Shown here: piece by piece, positions 16,189-28,257 of the stretch
Numbering within the stretch: position 1 is the stretch's first letter
Layout of the letters: the number at the start of each line of letters is the position of its first letter
Assembly: GCA_903921785.1 (NCBI GenBank)
Contig: CAIXRH010000249.1
Span: 1 to 52,605 of the forward strand
From: an uncultured Pseudomonadota bacterium
GTDB lineage: Bacteria > Myxococcota_A > UBA796 > SXON01
DNA: 52,605 nt
Reading direction: 5' to 3'
Program-made: the position numbers and the translations under genes
Notes under the pieces: model-generated
The model's input: the letters and a program-made list of their open reading frames with translations, nothing else
Databases searched by the model: none
Told to the model about the DNA's origin: nothing

Positions 16189-16803
16189 TCAGGTCGCTGC
16201 CGCGACGATCCCCTCCACCCCCATCCGCACCGCCGCCCCGACCACTCCCGCGAAGATCCAGGTCACCACGCCGCGGGCGACCGCGGACGAACCCGCCGAG
16301 GACCGCAGCCACGGGCGCCAGAGCACCGCGAAGGCGGCCGCGCCGGCCACTGCATCGAGCCCGCCCACCGCGAAGTCGCTCGCGCCCATGAAGCCGGTCA
16401 CCCGCTCCGGCGGCGTTTGGGTCCACAGCGCGTGGCCGATCAAGACCGCTGCCGCGCCCGCGAGCGCGAACGGCCACCCGAGGAGGCCGCGCAAAACCAG
16501 CCCGGCCAGCGCTCGTCCGCCCGGGGGCACCGCGGGGCTCCCGGCCCGCCACGCGCCGAGACCTGCGACCGCGCTGATCGCTGAAAACGGCGCCTGCACC
16601 CTCGACCACTTCAGCCAGATCGACCCGACGAGCAGGCCGGGCGGCGCGAAAGCGCCCGTCTGCACGTGGAGCCTCCAGAGGTCCGTCGTGGCGCCGAGCC
16701 CGCCAGCGGCGAACGCCGCCGCGAGCGCCCAGGTCCACGGGACGCGGGGCGACGAAGCGCGTACGACCTCGTCCGGAAGGGGTGCCCAGTGATCGTCACG
16801 CAT
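16189..16803 (-). CDS. Small multi-pass membrane protein, unknown function
   Basis: From the ATG at 16803 the protein is 204 residues and begins MRDDHWAPLPDEVV, a soluble head followed by about five hydrophobic helices (WTWALAAAFAAGG, ALAGLVLRGLLGW, FALAGAAAVLIGHAL, VGGLDAVAGAAAFAVLW, VTWIFAGVVGAAVRMGVEG). No charged motif inside the helices points to a transporter. The frame is open far upstream, but those residues are antisense to other genes, so this start is preferred. Function unknown. Confidence 0.6.
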   Translation of the reverse strand: MRDDHWAPLPDEVVRASSPRVPWTWALAAAFAAGGLGATTDLWRLHVQTGAFAPPGLLVGSIWLKWSRVQAPFSAISAVAGLGAWRAGSPAVPPGGRALAGLVLRGLLGWPFALAGAAAVLIGHALWTQTPPERVTGFMGASDFAVGGLDAVAGAAAFAVLWRPWLRSSAGSSAVARGVVTWIFAGVVGAAVRMGVEGIVAAAT

Positions 16804-16917
16804 CCGCCAGCTTATGTCGATTCGCACCAATCCAGTGCTCACGGCGTGGGTACGGCCCGTCATCCGACGGGTGGCGATGCCGTCCAGCCGACGGTACGGT
16901 GGGGGCGAGGATCTTCC

Positions 16918-17478
16918 ATGCGCCTGACCCTGATGTTCCCCATGTTCCTGCTCGCCGCGTGCGGCACCGGCTCCACCACGGACACCTCCGGCGGTTCCGA
17001 CACTTCGGGTGGCGACACCTCGGGCGGGGACACCGGCCCCAACGGCTATGGCGACGGCGCCTGCGTCTCCGGCGAGAAGTGGACCGGCGGCAACCGCGAG
17101 TCCGAGGACATGAACCCCGGCCAGGCGTGCATCGAGTGCCACAGCAGCAGCGACGAAGCCCCGTCCTTCGCGATCGCGGGTACGGTCTACACCAACTACG
17201 ACGAGCCGAAGAACTGCAACGGGCTCGACGGCGCGACCGTCCGCGTCACCGATGCCTCGGGCAACACCTACGAGGACAAGACCAACTCGGTCGGCAACTT
17301 CTACATCTCGTCCCGCGACGCGCGGATCAAGACGCCGTACACCGCCGAGGTGGAGTTCGCCGACGGTACGGTGGCGACGATGGCCGGCGAGCAGACCAGC
17401 GGCGACTGCAACTCCTGCCACACCCAGGACGGCGCCGAGGGCGCGCCGGGGCGCATCTCGAACTTCGCCGGGCAGTAG
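16918..17478 (+). CDS. Dihaem c-type lipoprotein with carboxypeptidase-regulatory-like domain
   Basis: The 186-residue protein starts at ATG with GGCGAGG upstream. Its signal (MRLTLMFPMFLLAAC) is lipidated at Cys15, followed by a Thr/Asp/Gly/Ser linker typical of Myxococcota lipoproteins. Two haem c motifs, CIECH and CNSCH, lie at either end of a ~70-residue beta domain with GATVRVTDASGN and NSVGNFYI, as in carboxypeptidase-regulatory or transthyretin-like folds. It is likely an envelope electron carrier on the periplasmic or surface side. A strong intrinsic terminator follows. No partner gene adjoins it. Confidence 0.78.
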   Translation: MRLTLMFPMFLLAACGTGSTTDTSGGSDTSGGDTSGGDTGPNGYGDGACVSGEKWTGGNRESEDMNPGQACIECHSSSDEAPSFAIAGTVYTNYDEPKNCNGLDGATVRVTDASGNTYEDKTNSVGNFYISSRDARIKTPYTAEVEFADGTVATMAGEQTSGDCNSCHTQDGAEGAPGRISNFAGQ

Positions 17479-17624: not shown

Positions 17625-20483
17625 CTACCGAAGCACGTACACCGCGCCCACCTGGGCGGTCATGATGTGCTCGTCGATCCCCGTGCCTTCGTCGCCGCCC
17701 AGGGTGGTGGCGGAGAAGTAGTGCCAGTCCCAGGCGAGGCCGAGGCGGATGGCCGCGGGGGCGGAGCCGAGCGGGATGTCCACCAGGGCGCCCGCGTGGG
17801 TGGCGGCGGGGGCCCAGGCGAAGGTCTCCGCGAGGTCCACGCTGGCGTGGAGGTCGGAAGGGAGGTCGACGTCGAGCTGACCGGCCACCCGCACGCCGAA
17901 CCAGCTCCCGACGGCGAGCTCCGCCGCCTGACGGCTCTCGTCGGTGTACTGGAAGTAGGGCGCGCTCAGCGACTGGATGTCGAGGCCGCCGCCAGCGCGG
18001 AGGCCATCGGCCACCGGGTGCAGGTACCGGCCGCCCGCCGTGATGTCGCGGAGGATGACCAGGAAGCTCTCGCCGTTGACGTCGTAGATATTGGCGGAGA
18101 ACCGACCGTTGGCGCCGAAGACGAGCCGGCCATCGCCCACCGGGAGCCCGTAGTGGCCCTGCACCGCGAGACCCCAGAAGCCCGTGCCCGGCGAGTCGAG
18201 GCTCGCACCAGCGAGGCCGCCGCCGGTGGTGGTGGAGGCGTAGGGACCGCGGAGGTTCACCAGCCCACCGCCGAAGCGCCCGGCCGCCGGCTCGCCGCCG
18301 TTGTTGTTCACCGGCGCGGGTCGCGGCTTGTTCACGGTCGTGCTGCTGCCGCCGCCGGAAGACCCGCCGCCAAAGCCGCCGAACCCACCGCCGCCGCCCG
18401 TGGAGCGGCTCTCGGTGCTCGCGCTCGCCGCGGCCTTCCCGCCGGCCTGCTCCAGCGTGCCCAGCTCGAGGCTGGTGATCGCCGTGCCCGCCGCGACCGT
18501 GACCTTCAGCGGCCCGTCCTTCCCGGCGGCGAGCTGCGCCGTGAAGGAGTAGGTGCCGTCGCGGCCGTCGGTGATCGGGCCGATGGAGGCCCCGCCCGCG
18601 CTGACCTGGAGCTTCTGCCCCGCCACGCCGACGCCGTTGTCGTCGTTGATGCGCACCTGCACGAGGATCGCGGCGCCGGGCGTGGTGTACCCGGGGGTGG
18701 TGGAGATCTGCATGTCGGCCGGGGGGCCGCTCGGGGGGATCACGCCTTCTCGGACCACGGTGAGCGTGGGCGAAGCGTGCTGCCAGCGCTCGAGCGCGGC
18801 GAGGTGGGCGGCGCCACCGCCGGGGGCCGGCGCGAGGAACTGCTTCTGCCCCACCTGGAAGACGGGGATCTCCGTCCACAACCCGCCGCCTTCGATGTGC
18901 AGCGTCTGCAGCCCGGCGGTGGTGCCGGCCTTGTAGGTGGCGTGGGCGATGCCCCGCGCGTCCGCCTTCACGGAGGGGGGCAGCACGCCGTCTCCCTTGG
19001 GGACGGAGAGCTTGAATTCCACGTTGGGGACGGGGAGATCGTAGGCGTCGACCGCCACGAGGGTGATGGCGGTGCCGTCGAGGCCGTTGCCGGTGACGGA
19101 CGGCGAGCCGGCCCAGGCGAGGATGCGCGCCGGAGCGAGCGAGGACACGTCCATCGGGGGGGTCCCGTAGACGCGGATGCGCTCGGTCTTGCTGGTGCCG
19201 GAGACGCTGCTCCCGTAGGTGCCGTCCTTGTTGTCGGCCACCTTCCCCGACATCGTGCCGCCGTCGGCGACCAGGGTGGGCGCGCGCCCGGCGAGGGCGG
19301 TGCCGCCGGCGTCCTTGAGGCGCGCGACGACCTTCACCGAGCCGCCGCCCTTGGGGAGGTCGGCGGGGTCGGCGGCCAGCGTCATCGTCGGGAGCGGGTT
19401 GAGCACCCGCAGCTTCCGGCTGGCGACGAGCCCGTTCCAATTGGCGGTCAGCGTGATGTCCTGCCCGGACGCCGGGGAGGTGAACAACCCGGCCATGACC
19501 TTGCCGTCCGGGCCCGGGGCGCCGATGGTGCCCGCCGAGGCAGTGAGCTTGAGGTCGGACGCCGACACGGCCTCGCCGGTGGGCGCCAGGGCGAGCACCC
19601 GGACCGGCAGCGGCGCGCTGGGGTTGGCGACGACGCTCGCGGGCATCGGCAGGAAGACCAGCTGCCCCTGCTGGGGCACGTTGGGCATGGGCACGTCCTT
19701 CTCGGCCTTGGACGTGTCGGTGTTCACGGTCTGCAGGTGGCCGACCGGCTGACGCGGATCGAGCTCCACCTCGAACGCGACGTGGTTCTTGGTGTCGGCC
19801 TTGAAGGGGCCGTACTTCTTGCCGCCGAGGGTGAGCACGTTCACGGAGGCGGAGGGGGCGTCGAACGTGACGGTCTGCTTCACGGTGACCGGCAGGCCGG
19901 CCCACCCCTGGATGGCGGGCGCGGCGGCGTCGGCGACGGTGACCGCGACCATCACCGGGCCGGTGAGCTTGGCCGGGGCGGTATACCGCGCGGCGTAGGT
20001 GCCATCCCCGAGGGGAACGGGCGGGTCTACTGTGCCGACGCTCGCGGTGAGCGCGAAGCGCCGCTGCTCGACCGCCACCGGCGACGTGCCCGAGGGCTTC
20101 ACCTTGATCGTGGCCGTGCCGCCCGCGGCGATGACCGGCGGGTCGAAGGTGACCGCGACGTCCCCGGCGAAGGGCGGCACGACGGGCACCTGCACCGTGT
20201 ACTCCTCGGACTGCGCCTGCACGGTGACCGGGAGGGTCTTCGCGGCGCTCACGCTCGGCGGGGTGTACGAGAACGTGACCACGCAGTCGGCGCCCGTGGT
20301 GACGCCCGCGACCTTTCCGGACTCCGCCTTCACCCGGGCGCGCACGCTACCGCCGCACTTCTCCAGGTACACATGGACTTCCGAGGTGGTGGCACCGTCG
20401 GCGGGGAGGGGAGCGGTGCCGACGAGGACCGCGCCCGCGTAGGCGGGCGCGACGGCCAGGAGCATCGTGAGCAAGAAGGACAC
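17625..20483 (-). CDS. Large exported Ig-repeat protein with C-terminal barrel-like domain
   Basis: A GTG at 20483 with GAGG upstream gives 952 residues and a clean signal sequence (VSFLLTMLLAVAPAYA, cut before Gly); in-frame residues upstream are not protein-like. Residues up to about 690 are a series of Ig-like beta domains with recurring phrases such as ITDGRDGTYSFTAQL and VPLGDGTYAARYTAP, as in invasin/Big-type repeats. A Gly/Ser-rich hinge with an FGGFGGGSS core separates them from a ~220-residue end rich in alternating aromatic and small residues (GLAVQGHYGLPVGD, RLGLAWDWHYFS), probably an 8-strand barrel. It may be an adhesin-like or structural outer-membrane protein. Barrel and repeat counts are estimates. 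Confidence 0.72.
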   Translation of the reverse strand: MSFLLTMLLAVAPAYAGAVLVGTAPLPADGATTSEVHVYLEKCGGSVRARVKAESGKVAGVTTGADCVVTFSYTPPSVSAAKTLPVTVQAQSEEYTVQVPVVPPFAGDVAVTFDPPVIAAGGTATIKVKPSGTSPVAVEQRRFALTASVGTVDPPVPLGDGTYAARYTAPAKLTGPVMVAVTVADAAAPAIQGWAGLPVTVKQTVTFDAPSASVNVLTLGGKKYGPFKADTKNHVAFEVELDPRQPVGHLQTVNTDTSKAEKDVPMPNVPQQGQLVFLPMPASVVANPSAPLPVRVLALAPTGEAVSASDLKLTASAGTIGAPGPDGKVMAGLFTSPASGQDITLTANWNGLVASRKLRVLNPLPTMTLAADPADLPKGGGSVKVVARLKDAGGTALAGRAPTLVADGGTMSGKVADNKDGTYGSSVSGTSKTERIRVYGTPPMDVSSLAPARILAWAGSPSVTGNGLDGTAITLVAVDAYDLPVPNVEFKLSVPKGDGVLPPSVKADARGIAHATYKAGTTAGLQTLHIEGGGLWTEIPVFQVGQKQFLAPAPGGGAAHLAALERWQHASPTLTVVREGVIPPSGPPADMQISTTPGYTTPGAAILVQVRINDDNGVGVAGQKLQVSAGGASIGPITDGRDGTYSFTAQLAAGKDGPLKVTVAAGTAITSLELGTLEQAGGKAAASASTESRSTGGGGGFGGFGGGSSGGGSSTTVNKPRPAPVNNNGGEPAAGRFGGGLVNLRGPYASTTTGGGLAGASLDSPGTGFWGLAVQGHYGLPVGDGRLVFGANGRFSANIYDVNGESFLVILRDITAGGRYLHPVADGLRAGGGLDIQSLSAPYFQYTDESRQAAELAVGSWFGVRVAGQLDVDLPSDLHASVDLAETFAWAPAATHAGALVDIPLGSAPAAIRLGLAWDWHYFSATTLGGDEGTGIDEHIMTAQVGAVYVLR

Positions 20484-20546
20484 GCCGACCTCGGGGACGG
20501 TGGGGATGCGGAATGTACCGCGCGTGCGCGCGCGGGGACGCGAAAC

Positions 20547-20717: not shown

Positions 20718-20756
20718 CCAAAAGGCGAGCCCGGAGCGGGCCGAAGCCCGCTCCGG
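20718..20756 (-). terminator. Intrinsic terminator of the redoxin gene
   Basis: Perfect 11-bp stem (CCGGAGCGGGC at 20731-20741 with GCCCGCTCCGG at 20746-20756), a 4-nt loop, and TTTT 7 nt further on the minus strand. It sits 9 bp after the redoxin stop codon. Confidence 0.75.
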
Positions 20757-20765
20757 AAGGCGGAC

Positions 20766-21467
20766 TCAGAGCCGACCGACCGCGGTCTCGACCTGGGTGC
20801 CCGAGGCGATGTTGAAGATCTCCACGCCGGGGTCGATGACCACGGTGAAGGGGAGACCCACGCCGCTCATGCCCTCAGCGTACTTGTACATCAAGTCGTC
20901 GGAACCGGCGAGCACCGGCATGGTGAGGCCGTAGGTGTCGGCCCATTCGGCCGCTTCATCGACGCTCGGCGCGGCGCTCTCATCGTTCTCAACGATAACT
21001 TCCAGGACCATGAATCCCGGGCCCTTGTCCTTGTTGTCCTGGTAGATGGCTTCGAGGCCCCCGGCCTCGGATTGACACGCGCCTCACCAGAACGCTGCGA
21101 ACACCATGTAGATCTCGCGGGCGCAGAAGCTGTACATGTGTACGTTCTGGCCGTTCTGATCGGGAAGGGAGAAGTCTTCGGAGACGTCCCCGTTGGCGTA
21201 GCCTTCGCCCTGGATGTCGGCGTGGCAGCTGTCGATCGCCCAGCCGCCCTTGTAGGGGTACTCCCCGCCATCGAGCGGGTCGGTGTGGGCGGTGAGCTCG
21301 GTGCCGTCGTCGGCGCCGTCATCGTCGGAGTCGGGCTTGGCGGGATCGGTGCCCAGATCGGCTTCTTCCGAGCCGAGCAGGCCGTCTCCGTCCGCGTCGA
21401 CATCCACGCTGACGGACGCGGGGGCGCAGCCGGGGAGCGAGGAGAGGGTGAGGAGGGTCAAAAACAA
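20766..21467 (-). CDS. Candidate selenoprotein: thioredoxin/redoxin-fold lipoprotein with UxxC active site
   Basis: Read through one in-frame TGA (21084-21086) this is a 233-residue protein. It starts at TTG 21467 with GAGGTGA upstream and has lipobox LPGC (Cys14). Residues ~20-60 are Asp-rich calcium-type loops ([14 protein letters not shown]). The redoxin domain then runs [21 protein letters not shown], with Sec at 128 where family members have the nucleophilic Cys of WCxxC, and the resolving Cys131 kept. The downstream part is a normal thioredoxin fold including the cis-Pro loop [16 protein letters not shown]-like hairpin follows the TGA at the expected distance. Probably a periplasm-facing thiol oxidoreductase or peroxidase. 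The alternative is a nonsense mutation in an otherwise intact gene. Confidence 0.82.
21053..21069 (-). promoter_or_regulatory. SECIS-like hairpin downstream of the in-frame TGA
   Basis: On the minus strand, 14 nt after the TGA, CGAGGCC and GGCCTCG form a perfect 7-bp stem with a GGG loop. The loop lies 22-24 nt after the TGA and begins with G. Both fit the bacterial SECIS pattern (loop roughly 16-37 nt from UGA, G in its first two positions) recognised by SelB. Confidence 0.7.
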
Positions 21468-21504
21468 CGTTCACCTCGGGGTGGGACCTGATGATCCTGC
21501 GCGC

Positions 21505-21939: not shown

Positions 21940-23556
21940 ATGGCCACCATCCTGGTGATCGACGACCAGGATCGGTACGTCGGCCTCTGCCGCAAGGCGA
22001 TCCCCGAGCACGACTACCTGGGTCCGGCGCGCTGCTGGCGCGAAGCCGCGGAGCTCCTGCGTACGCGTCGCCGGGACGTGGACCTGGTGCTGCTCGACGT
22101 ACACTTCGAGATCCCCGCTGAGGACCTCGTCGGACTGCCCGCCGGCGCCGACGCCAAGACGCTCGCCAAGGTGCGGCGCCGCCAGGGGCTGGAGATCCTC
22201 GCCCGCCTCCGTCGCCGGCTCCCCGACCTCCCGGTCGTGCTGATGACCAGCAAGGACGAGGTGGCGTTGGAGCGCGCGGCCGAGCGCCTCGACGCCGAGG
22301 AGTACACCTACTTCCTCGACGATGAATACGTGGATGCACGCAGCCTCCGCGTGCAGATCGAGAACGTGCTGTCCGCGCGCCGGGGGCGCGAGGCGGAGGG
22401 GCCCGTCTACTGGGGGCGGTCGGCGGAGATGCGGCGCATCCGCGCCCGGCTCCACGTGCTCGCGCGGGGGCGCCTGCCGGTGATCCTCGGCGGGCCCACC
22501 GGCACCGGCAAGTCGATGATCGCGCGCCACGTGGTGCATACCCGCTCGGGGCGGCGTGGCCGCTTCGTGTCGGTCGACCTCAGCACCCTCCCGCGGGACC
22601 TCGTGGCCGCCCAGCTCTTCGGCAGCGCGCGCGGCGCCTACACCGGCAGCGTCGCGGATCGGAAGGGCGCCTTCGAAGAGGCCGACGGCGGCACCCTCTT
22701 CCTCGACGAGATCGGGAATCTCCCGGAAGACGTACAGAAGATGCTCCTGACGGTCCTCCAGGAGGGCGTGGTGACCCGCATCGGGGACACCGCGGAGCGC
22801 CGGGTGGACGTGAAGCTGGTGGTCGCCACCCACGAGGACCTCCCGGAGTTGGTGCGCGCCGGTCGCTTCCGCGCCGACCTCTACATGCGGCTGAACCCAG
22901 CTTGTACGGTCATCCTGCCCCCGCTGGTGAAGCGTCGCGGCGACTTCCACGGGCTCTTGACCTGGGCGGCGTTGCGGGCCTTGGAGTCGCCACAGCTCCT
23001 CGGCCTGGTGCAAGAATACCGCGAGCGCACCGGGCTCGGCGCGGGCACCCCGACGCAGCCCGCCGGGGATGTAGGGGTTCCCCTGAACGGGGAGGTGCCA
23101 CCGACCGTCCCGAACCGGCTGGTGCTCTTGTTCCCGGAGCGCACCCAGCGCCTGCTCCGTCGTCACCGCTGGCCGGGCAACCTCCGAGAATTCGCGATGG
23201 TTTTGGAGAACGCGCTCACGTTCACCTTCGCTGAGCTCGCTGGCTTCGGCGCGGGCGCTCGCGCGGACGTGGTGCAGGTGCGCCCGAAGCTGGTGCGGGA
23301 TCTCCTCCGCGCGGTGCGCGTCGAGCGCGCCAGCGAAGCGGACGGCTGGAGGTGCGAGGTGGTGATCCGCCCCGACCCCACGCTCAACCACCTCGCGCAG
23401 GACGTCGAACGCCAGTACTTTACCCGGCTCTGGGAGCAGGAGGAGGGCGACTTCGCGGCGATGGCCCGCCTTTTGATGGGCGACGAGACCGCCGCCCGGA
23501 AGGTGCAGCTCCGCTTCAACCAGCTCGGGTTGAAGGTGAGGGAGATGAAGGGGTAG
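21940..23556 (+). CDS. Sigma-54-dependent transcriptional activator with atypical receiver domain
   Basis: The 538-residue protein has an N-terminal response-regulator-like domain (acidic pair Asp8-Asp9, likely phospho-Asp53, Thr103), but with about 20 extra residues after Asp53. The usual C-terminal Lys is not evident (FLDDEYVD in its place). The central AAA+ domain has Walker A GGPTGTGKS at 184-192, GAYTGS at 232-237 (the sigma-54-contacting GAFTGA loop), LFLDE at 253-257, FRADLYMRL and RHRWPGNLRE. A ~50-residue insert lies before the last. The C-terminus (EGDFAAMARLLMGDETAA onward) looks like a diverged Fis-type helix-turn-helix. It should activate sigma-54 promoters; targets are unknown. 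Confidence 0.9.
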   Translation: MATILVIDDQDRYVGLCRKAIPEHDYLGPARCWREAAELLRTRRRDVDLVLLDVHFEIPAEDLVGLPAGADAKTLAKVRRRQGLEILARLRRRLPDLPVVLMTSKDEVALERAAERLDAEEYTYFLDDEYVDARSLRVQIENVLSARRGREAEGPVYWGRSAEMRRIRARLHVLARGRLPVILGGPTGTGKSMIARHVVHTRSGRRGRFVSVDLSTLPRDLVAAQLFGSARGAYTGSVADRKGAFEEADGGTLFLDEIGNLPEDVQKMLLTVLQEGVVTRIGDTAERRVDVKLVVATHEDLPELVRAGRFRADLYMRLNPACTVILPPLVKRRGDFHGLLTWAALRALESPQLLGLVQEYRERTGLGAGTPTQPAGDVGVPLNGEVPPTVPNRLVLLFPERTQRLLRRHRWPGNLREFAMVLENALTFTFAELAGFGAGARADVVQVRPKLVRDLLRAVRVERASEADGWRCEVVIRPDPTLNHLAQDVERQYFTRLWEQEEGDFAAMARLLMGDETAARKVQLRFNQLGLKVREMKG

Positions 23557-26991: not shown

Positions 26992-28257
26992 GTGCGACGC
27001 TCGGGTGTGCTCGTCACGCGCCCGTCCCCGCGTCGTTCTCTGCGCTGGTTCCGCCGTTTCCGGTACACGTTCCTCCCCGTCCTCGCGCTCGGCGGGGTGC
27101 TGGAGCGCTTCAGCGACGCCAGCTACGACGGAGGCGCGCTCGCGCAGTTCCTCCTCGCGGCGTTGGCGCTGGAGATCCTCGAACGGGCCCTGGTCACCCG
27201 CTTCGGCCCGTCGGCCGCGGTCCTCCCGCTTCAGGTGGCGCTCACCTTGGGGCAACTCGCGGGCGGCGCGTGGTTGCTCCGGGCCGCCGACCACCCCGGC
27301 CTCGACATGCTGGTGCAGTTCGTGGTGCCGTGCGCGCTCACCCTCTCCCCGCCGATGGCGTGGATGTCCGCCCTGCTGCTCATCGGCGTACACAACGGCC
27401 TGGTGCTGTTTGGCCCCCGTGTCGGGCCGGTCGAGCTCGACGTCTTCGGGATGGTGGCGGCGCGACAGCTCCAGCAGCTCCTGGTGTTCGACGCCTCGGT
27501 CGTGGCGCTCACGCTCACGGTCATCCGGGTCCGCGACCTGCTCAACGACCGCGAAGCCCGCCTGCACGCCGCCCTCGAAGATCACGCCCGCGACGAACGC
27601 TTCGTGTCGCTCGGCATCCTCTCCGCAGGCATCGCGCACGAGCTCGGCACCCCGCTGTCCTCGATCGACCTGCTCGCCTCGGAGGCGTTGGCGGACCCGG
27701 AGAGCACGCGCGAGGCGCTCACCACACTGCGGGGGCAGGTGCAACGGTGTCGGGAGATTCTCGACCGGCTGCGTGGCGGCACCGCGTGGACGGTCTCCAA
27801 CGAAGTCGAAGCGTTCGGGCCGTGCCTGCGGCGGTGGGTGGCGGACTGGCAGAGCGCGGGCCTCGATCGCGGGCAGCTCCGCCTGGAGGTGGCTGCCGGG
27901 CTCGAGCTGCTGGCGGTCGCCGGTGACCCAGACACCTGGAGGGGGATCGTCTGGTCGCTCCTCGACAACGCCGCTCGGGCCGGCTTCCCGATCGTCGTGC
28001 GGGCGGACGCCGCGGGGGATGTGCTCCTGGAGATCGACGACGGCGGCCAGGGCCCCACGGCCCAGGTGATCGCCCAGGCGGGCGAGGCGTTTCATTCACG
28101 GTGGGGCGACGGCGGCCGAGAAGGGCGGGGGTTGGCGCTCTTCGTGGCCACTTCGTTCGCCCGTCGCTGGGGCGGGGACCTGCGGCTCTCCCGTAGGCCC
28201 GGTGGGGGTGGTCGGGTCGCGGTTCGCCTTGCTACAATCCCGCGAGAGGCGAGCTGA
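26992..28257 (+). CDS. regB: Membrane sensor histidine kinase, RegB/PrrB-like
   Basis: A GTG at 26992 with GGAG five bases upstream gives 421 residues (alternatives: ATG 26950, GTG 27007). After a basic N-terminus come about five or six membrane helices, then the kinase core: H-box AGIAHELGTPLSSID with His216, N-box LLDNAARAG, G-boxes DDGGQGP and GREGRGLALF. HELGTPL is the RegB/PrrB/ActS form. Cys253, in QRCREIL, 37 residues after His216, sits near where RegB has its redox-active Cys. The quinone-linked GGxxNPF motif was not found. It is followed 2 bp later by its RegA-like partner. Likely senses respiratory redox state. Confidence 0.85.
   Translation: MRRSGVLVTRPSPRRSLRWFRRFRYTFLPVLALGGVLERFSDASYDGGALAQFLLAALALEILERALVTRFGPSAAVLPLQVALTLGQLAGGAWLLRAADHPGLDMLVQFVVPCALTLSPPMAWMSALLLIGVHNGLVLFGPRVGPVELDVFGMVAARQLQQLLVFDASVVALTLTVIRVRDLLNDREARLHAALEDHARDERFVSLGILSAGIAHELGTPLSSIDLLASEALADPESTREALTTLRGQVQRCREILDRLRGGTAWTVSNEVEAFGPCLRRWVADWQSAGLDRGQLRLEVAAGLELLAVAGDPDTWRGIVWSLLDNAARAGFPIVVRADAAGDVLLEIDDGGQGPTAQVIAQAGEAFHSRWGDGGREGRGLALFVATSFARRWGGDLRLSRRPGGGGRVAVRLATIPREAS

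Follow-up and report, generated by a model that had tools for sequence, protein, structure and literature searches.

A probable selenocysteine-containing TSP3-repeat redoxin lipoprotein and its relatives in an uncultured Myxococcota-like order

Within the window (the whole stretch of 52,605 nucleotides analysed here), a reading frame for a redoxin-like lipoprotein is crossed once by TGA, at the very position where thioredoxin-type enzymes carry their first catalytic cysteine. Does this codon end a gene, or is it read as selenocysteine (Sec)? Judged from sequence comparison, we place the probability that the gene at 21467..20766 encodes a selenoprotein at roughly 95%. Its features are as follows.

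20766..21467, minus strand: predicted gene for a TSP3/redoxin lipoprotein with Sec (233 aa), running from TTG at 21467 to the TGA stop at 20768-20766
21474..21477, minus strand: GAGG ribosome-binding site, 6 nt upstream of the TTG start, by direct reading
21426..21437, minus strand: lipobox LPGC, its Cys14 invariant among orthologues
21270..21398, minus strand: bacterial TSP3 (calcium-type) repeats, PF18884
20826..21191, minus strand: AhpC-TSA/Redoxin (ResA/TlpA-like) domain, from Pfam, profile and fold matches and an AlphaFold model
21084..21086, minus strand: UGA codon read as putative Sec, residue 128; TGA or Cys in 110/116 family members
21075..21077, minus strand: partner Cys131 of the U-G-A-C motif, from the family alignment
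21225..21227, minus strand: Cys81, present or absent jointly with Cys115
21123..21125, minus strand: Cys115, predicted disulfide partner of Cys81
20731..20756, minus strand: possible terminator, a strong hairpin past the stop codon with a weak T tract at 20720-20723

Apart from the single TGA, the frame holds no other stops or frameshifts, and standard gene finding closes it at 21084. The motif around residue 128 reads FAAFW-U-GAC, with TGA where a WCxxC site of the TlpA/ResA type has its first Cys, just as the first-pass annotation had claimed. That annotation had the position of the gene right and left out its strand, which is minus; the good ribosome site it noted is the GAGG listed above, and its Ca-type loops are bacterial TSP3 repeats, which PF18884 matches in two stretches at 25.9 bits against a gathering cut-off of 25. 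Other claims stood in part. The lipobox is supported by Cys14, which is invariant after LPG, LVG or FTG in the seven orthologues; the signal segment of the window copy is short, uncharged and without a basic start. Likewise, the proposed terminator has a stable hairpin (-28 kcal/mol) but only four T, a few bases on, and a consensus terminator scan did not report it.

What might such a protein do? Its AlphaFold model is confident (pLDDT 88). Among solved structures, ResA proteins come closest, both by fold and by profile, with further structural matches to pneumococcal surface thioredoxin lipoproteins and, by fold, to the 1-Cys peroxiredoxin AhpE; the top Pfam match is AhpC-TSA. A thioredoxin fold combined with a W-C/U-x-x-C active site makes the protein ResA/TlpA-like, and Pro206, in a putative cis-Pro loop, is invariant. 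On these sequence and model comparisons, a role as thiol-disulfide oxidoreductase is likely. The selenoprotein could instead act as a peroxidase of the peroxiredoxin kind, a reading to which the AhpC-TSA and AhpE matches lend some weight, as does the fact that Sec favours peroxide chemistry. We nevertheless consider this unlikely, given the TlpA/ResA-type WU/CxxC site, with Cys131 kept in all 68 Sec members of the family (and in all 42 Cys members, being lost in 5 of 6 others), the first rank of ResA by both fold and profile, and Cys versions that are mostly WCGPC.

The likely oxidoreductase shares with Bacillus subtilis ResA (1st9) and the TlpA family a thioredoxin fold with N-terminal additions, a WCxxC-type site and a predicted envelope location; it differs from them in its Sec at the place of the first Cys, in its TSP3 repeats and in a further Cys pair (Cys81-Cys115), with an identity of about 20%. 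Since it misses the NCBIfam cut-offs for ResA (43.5 of 170 bits) and TlpA (20.3 of 230 bits), it would work like these proteins without being ResA or TlpA proper; the same two models are the best NCBIfam matches of 14 relatives. As for the extra pair, Cys81 and Cys115 occur together in 92/116 members and never singly; the remaining 24 show neither (the Cys81 region being unaligned in 5 of them), and both are kept in the six copies whose active site is not of the normal kind. This co-occurrence, and the retention in inactive copies, indicate that Cys81-Cys115 probably forms a structural disulfide.

Whether the TGA is a sense codon can be judged from the relatives. A search of public genome contigs turned up six orthologues, 66-69% identical, in assemblies other than that of the window, whose names read Deltaproteobacteria or Proteobacteria. 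In 6/6 the matching codon is likewise TGA, and the frame runs on past it to a TGA stop. A single-base sequencing error at this codon is ruled out by the same TGA in these independent assemblies. We aligned 116 distinct family members from 58 genomes of the order, in all of which (58/58) family matches are present. At the Sec column, 68 members have TGA, 42 have Cys and 6 have another residue (Ser, Asp or Thr), such that homologues show TGA or Cys at the exact position, not the random stop codons that the first-pass annotation had named as a sign against its own reading. On a tree built with the Sec column masked, the Sec state changed at least 11 times, 5 of these changes being forced by well-supported branches.

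These data also bear on the proposal that the locus is a decaying pseudogene, or encodes a true lipoprotein of 127 aa that ends at the TGA and is followed by relic similarity. Closure of the frame at 21084 by standard gene finding agrees with it, as do non-Sec, non-Cys copies in the family, such as one with WSALS in the same genome. We regard it as highly improbable all the same: among the seven orthologues, the stretch past the TGA is about as well conserved as the stretch ahead of it (in keeping with the earlier view that the gene is not decayed), TGA occupies one column in 68 members alongside a covarying hairpin, and the frame is free of further stops and frameshifts.

The selenoprotein reading calls for an insertion element, for which there is the following candidate.

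21053..21069, minus strand: predicted bacterial SECIS element, a hairpin CGAGGCC-GGG-GGCCTCG whose loop (21062-21060) lies 21 nt past the UGA

This is the hairpin of the first-pass annotation, and its start 14 nt past the TGA and GGG loop at +22 to +24 proved correct on the sequence. Rules for bacterial SECIS (bSECIS) elements specify a loop of 3-9 nt, a stem of 4-16 bp, a G within the first two loop positions, a distance of 16-37 nt from the UGA and an energy of at most -7.5 kcal/mol (PMC13188914); the window hairpin, with a 7 bp stem, GGG loop and -11.5 kcal/mol, conforms to them. So do 54/68 Sec members vs 4/42 Cys members, while 14/68 Sec members miss the -7.5 kcal/mol limit in a simple hairpin scan. 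Mean hairpin energy is -9.5 kcal/mol in Sec and -4.4 kcal/mol in Cys members (p = 9e-13). Against random synonymous codons, single-gene hairpins give a modest signal (mean z -1.25), and single-sequence folding of a 45-nt stretch of the window did not favour the hairpin (z = -0.18). The latter being uninformative, comparative tests were used instead.

Apart from one loop base, CGAGGCCGGKGGCCTCGAA does not vary among the seven closest genes, although the proteins they encode are ~67% identical to the window's. In the covariation set of 38 genes with the hairpin in the window register, 96.9% of cells are paired, vs 90% in shuffles (0/500 shuffles) and 27-55% when the hairpin is slid. Compensatory changes replace the outer C-G pair with G-C in 12 genes and an inner G-C pair with A-U in one. 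The outer swap joins a replacement of Glu (GAA) by Gln (CAA/CAG) to a third-base change in the codon preceding Glu-Ala, where TCC or AGC gives way to TCG or GCG; selection on the protein alone would not predict such coupling of third-base and Glu/Gln changes. In other subfamilies, the sequence and place of the hairpin differ, the small loop usually beginning with GG or GU.

The machinery for Sec insertion, for which a search of the same genome had been suggested earlier, is there in full. The genome that holds the window, 7.48 Mb in size and 96% complete, encodes selA (378 bits), selB (313 bits, 605 aa), selD (385 bits) and a tRNA-Sec with a UCA anticodon. The selD gene (L018, G000:C14:28559-29485) has an in-frame TGA of its own, in HGGG-U-GCK, and by this motif its product, selenophosphate synthetase, is of the selenoprotein type. 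Across the order, selB scores above the cut-off in 47/58 genomes and was not found above it in 11/58, some of the latter with TGA members; these are draft assemblies. Readthrough of the UGA by another route, i.e., suppression, misinsertion of Cys or genome-wide reassignment, would also yield a working enzyme if Cys were inserted, relatives having Cys at this codon, but there is very little chance of it where tRNA-Sec, selA, selB and selD are present and the element fits the bSECIS rules, all the more as the window gene and all six orthologues end in TGA, so that UGA is not generally reassigned.

For the selenoprotein, we thus envisage the following sequence of events. SelB with Sec-tRNA(UCA) would bind the hairpin in the mRNA, allowing Sec to be inserted at residue 128 in place of termination; here, machinery and element are read from sequence and insertion is inferred. 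The product, going by its lipobox and repeats, would be exported as a lipoprotein bearing calcium-type TSP3 repeats, which suggest that the redoxin may face the medium. On the ResA/TlpA-like thioredoxin fold, Sec128 and Cys131 would form the redox pair, the former being the nucleophile and the latter its partner; the most likely task of the redoxin, in the envelope or on the cell surface, would be to reduce or exchange disulfides or to reduce oxidised thiols.

How does this protein relate to known selenoproteins? UxxC redoxin, Prx-like and TlpA-like selenoproteins are among the 119 families and subfamilies catalogued in 2026 (PMC13188914), and share with the window protein a Sec first in UxxC and a bSECIS element (Table 1 therein); none of the families in that table is described as a TSP3-repeat lipoprotein, a separation that is drawn from their descriptions. 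Two NCBIfam families, NF041054 (WAxxUGC_long) and NF053656 (redoxin_TUGYCR), are likewise ResA-like or thioredoxin-fold selenoproteins; their Sec motifs are UGC and TUGYCR, as opposed to WUxxC here, and the window protein scores 13.1 of 300 bits and 11.5 of 100 bits against them, respectively. It also misses the curated cut-off of deiodinase_rel, and no NCBIfam model, for selenoproteins or otherwise, matches it at cut-off. In the literature searched, with subscription papers outside its scope, we found no relevant paper on Myxococcota selenoproteins or on selenoproteins with TSP3 repeats, and myxobacteria go unmentioned in the main text of the deep-Sep paper and of a 2016 survey. The earlier claim of novelty is thereby narrowed: a calcium-loop lipoprotein with UxxC is undescribed in the literature searched, while UxxC redoxin and TlpA-like selenoproteins are an established class. 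New are (i) the combination of TSP3 repeats, lipobox and UxxC redoxin, (ii) its order-wide expansion, (iii) the always co-occurring second Cys pair and (iv) the lack of a fitting curated model.

That expansion is considerable. At least 36/58 genomes carry a Sec copy, the maximum being six Sec copies each in G009 and G031, and in several members of the genus Sec copies stand in tandem, two or three at a time. Strong matches lie mainly within the same order and class in a phylum-wide sample, and a search of a plasmid collection returned distant ResA matches only. Since ordinary annotation would split these genes in two and no curated model covers them, most of this order-wide set of selenoproteins has probably escaped notice. 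The 68 Sec and 42 Cys versions from related genomes make the family a good system for asking when, and for what reasons, bacteria swap Sec and Cys; it also suits study of how a SECIS element is maintained inside coding sequence, the Glu/Gln change tracking a codon third base, and suggests redox chemistry dependent on selenium at the cell surface.

Copies that lack the active site accompany the Sec copies. A paralogue in the window's own genome (L058, G000:C315:13012-13632) has WSALS in place of WU/CxxC, and thus neither redox residue, and retains Cys81 and Cys115. In G009, three Sec redoxin genes and one inactive copy lie in tandem (C15:36206-39104; L028, L072, L074, L080), immediately ahead of the Ig-domain surface-protein gene; the inactive copy, which follows the Sec genes, reads QDGPT.

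The window gene has comparable company, with two neighbours of interest.

17625..20498, minus strand: Big_1/Invasin_D3 Ig-domain surface protein, a co-directional neighbour, from domain matches
21940..23556, plus strand: divergent sigma-54-dependent response regulator, a conserved neighbour within the family

The Ig-domain protein is large and exported, with a Gly/Ser linker and a C-terminus that, from its sequence, reads like a beta-barrel. No remnant of a second tandem copy was found between its gene and that of the redoxin. Within the family, the regulator is retained beside the redoxin, and the Ig-domain gene is retained beside redoxins in other families of the order too, Cys versions included. 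Such conserved adjacency implies that redoxin and Ig-domain protein likely act on the same surface structure; more weakly, it suggests that the redoxin may serve the Ig-domain protein itself or that structure. A disulfide of the Ig-domain protein was considered as the conserved substrate, a candidate weakened by the distribution of that protein's only Cys pair, which is conserved within the genus alone and is not shared by other families in which the two genes stay together. Taken more broadly, this uncultured Myxococcota-like order, with its expanded and repeatedly duplicated Sec surface redoxins, recurrent Sec/Cys exchange and genetic coupling to Ig-domain proteins, might possess a previously undescribed selenium-dependent system of redox maintenance at the outer surface, an idea we put forward tentatively and hold to be somewhat less probable than its opposite.

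Two further observations concern the remainder of the window. The gene at 16666-17478 is small and lipoprotein-like; its product, which has a linker of Thr, Ser, Gly and Asp and the CxxCH-like motifs CIECH and CNSCH, is possibly haem-binding. At 27417-27506, ARAGORN reports a 90-nt tRNA-Arg(tcg) that overlaps long open frames, including an apparent histidine kinase, and may be a false call.
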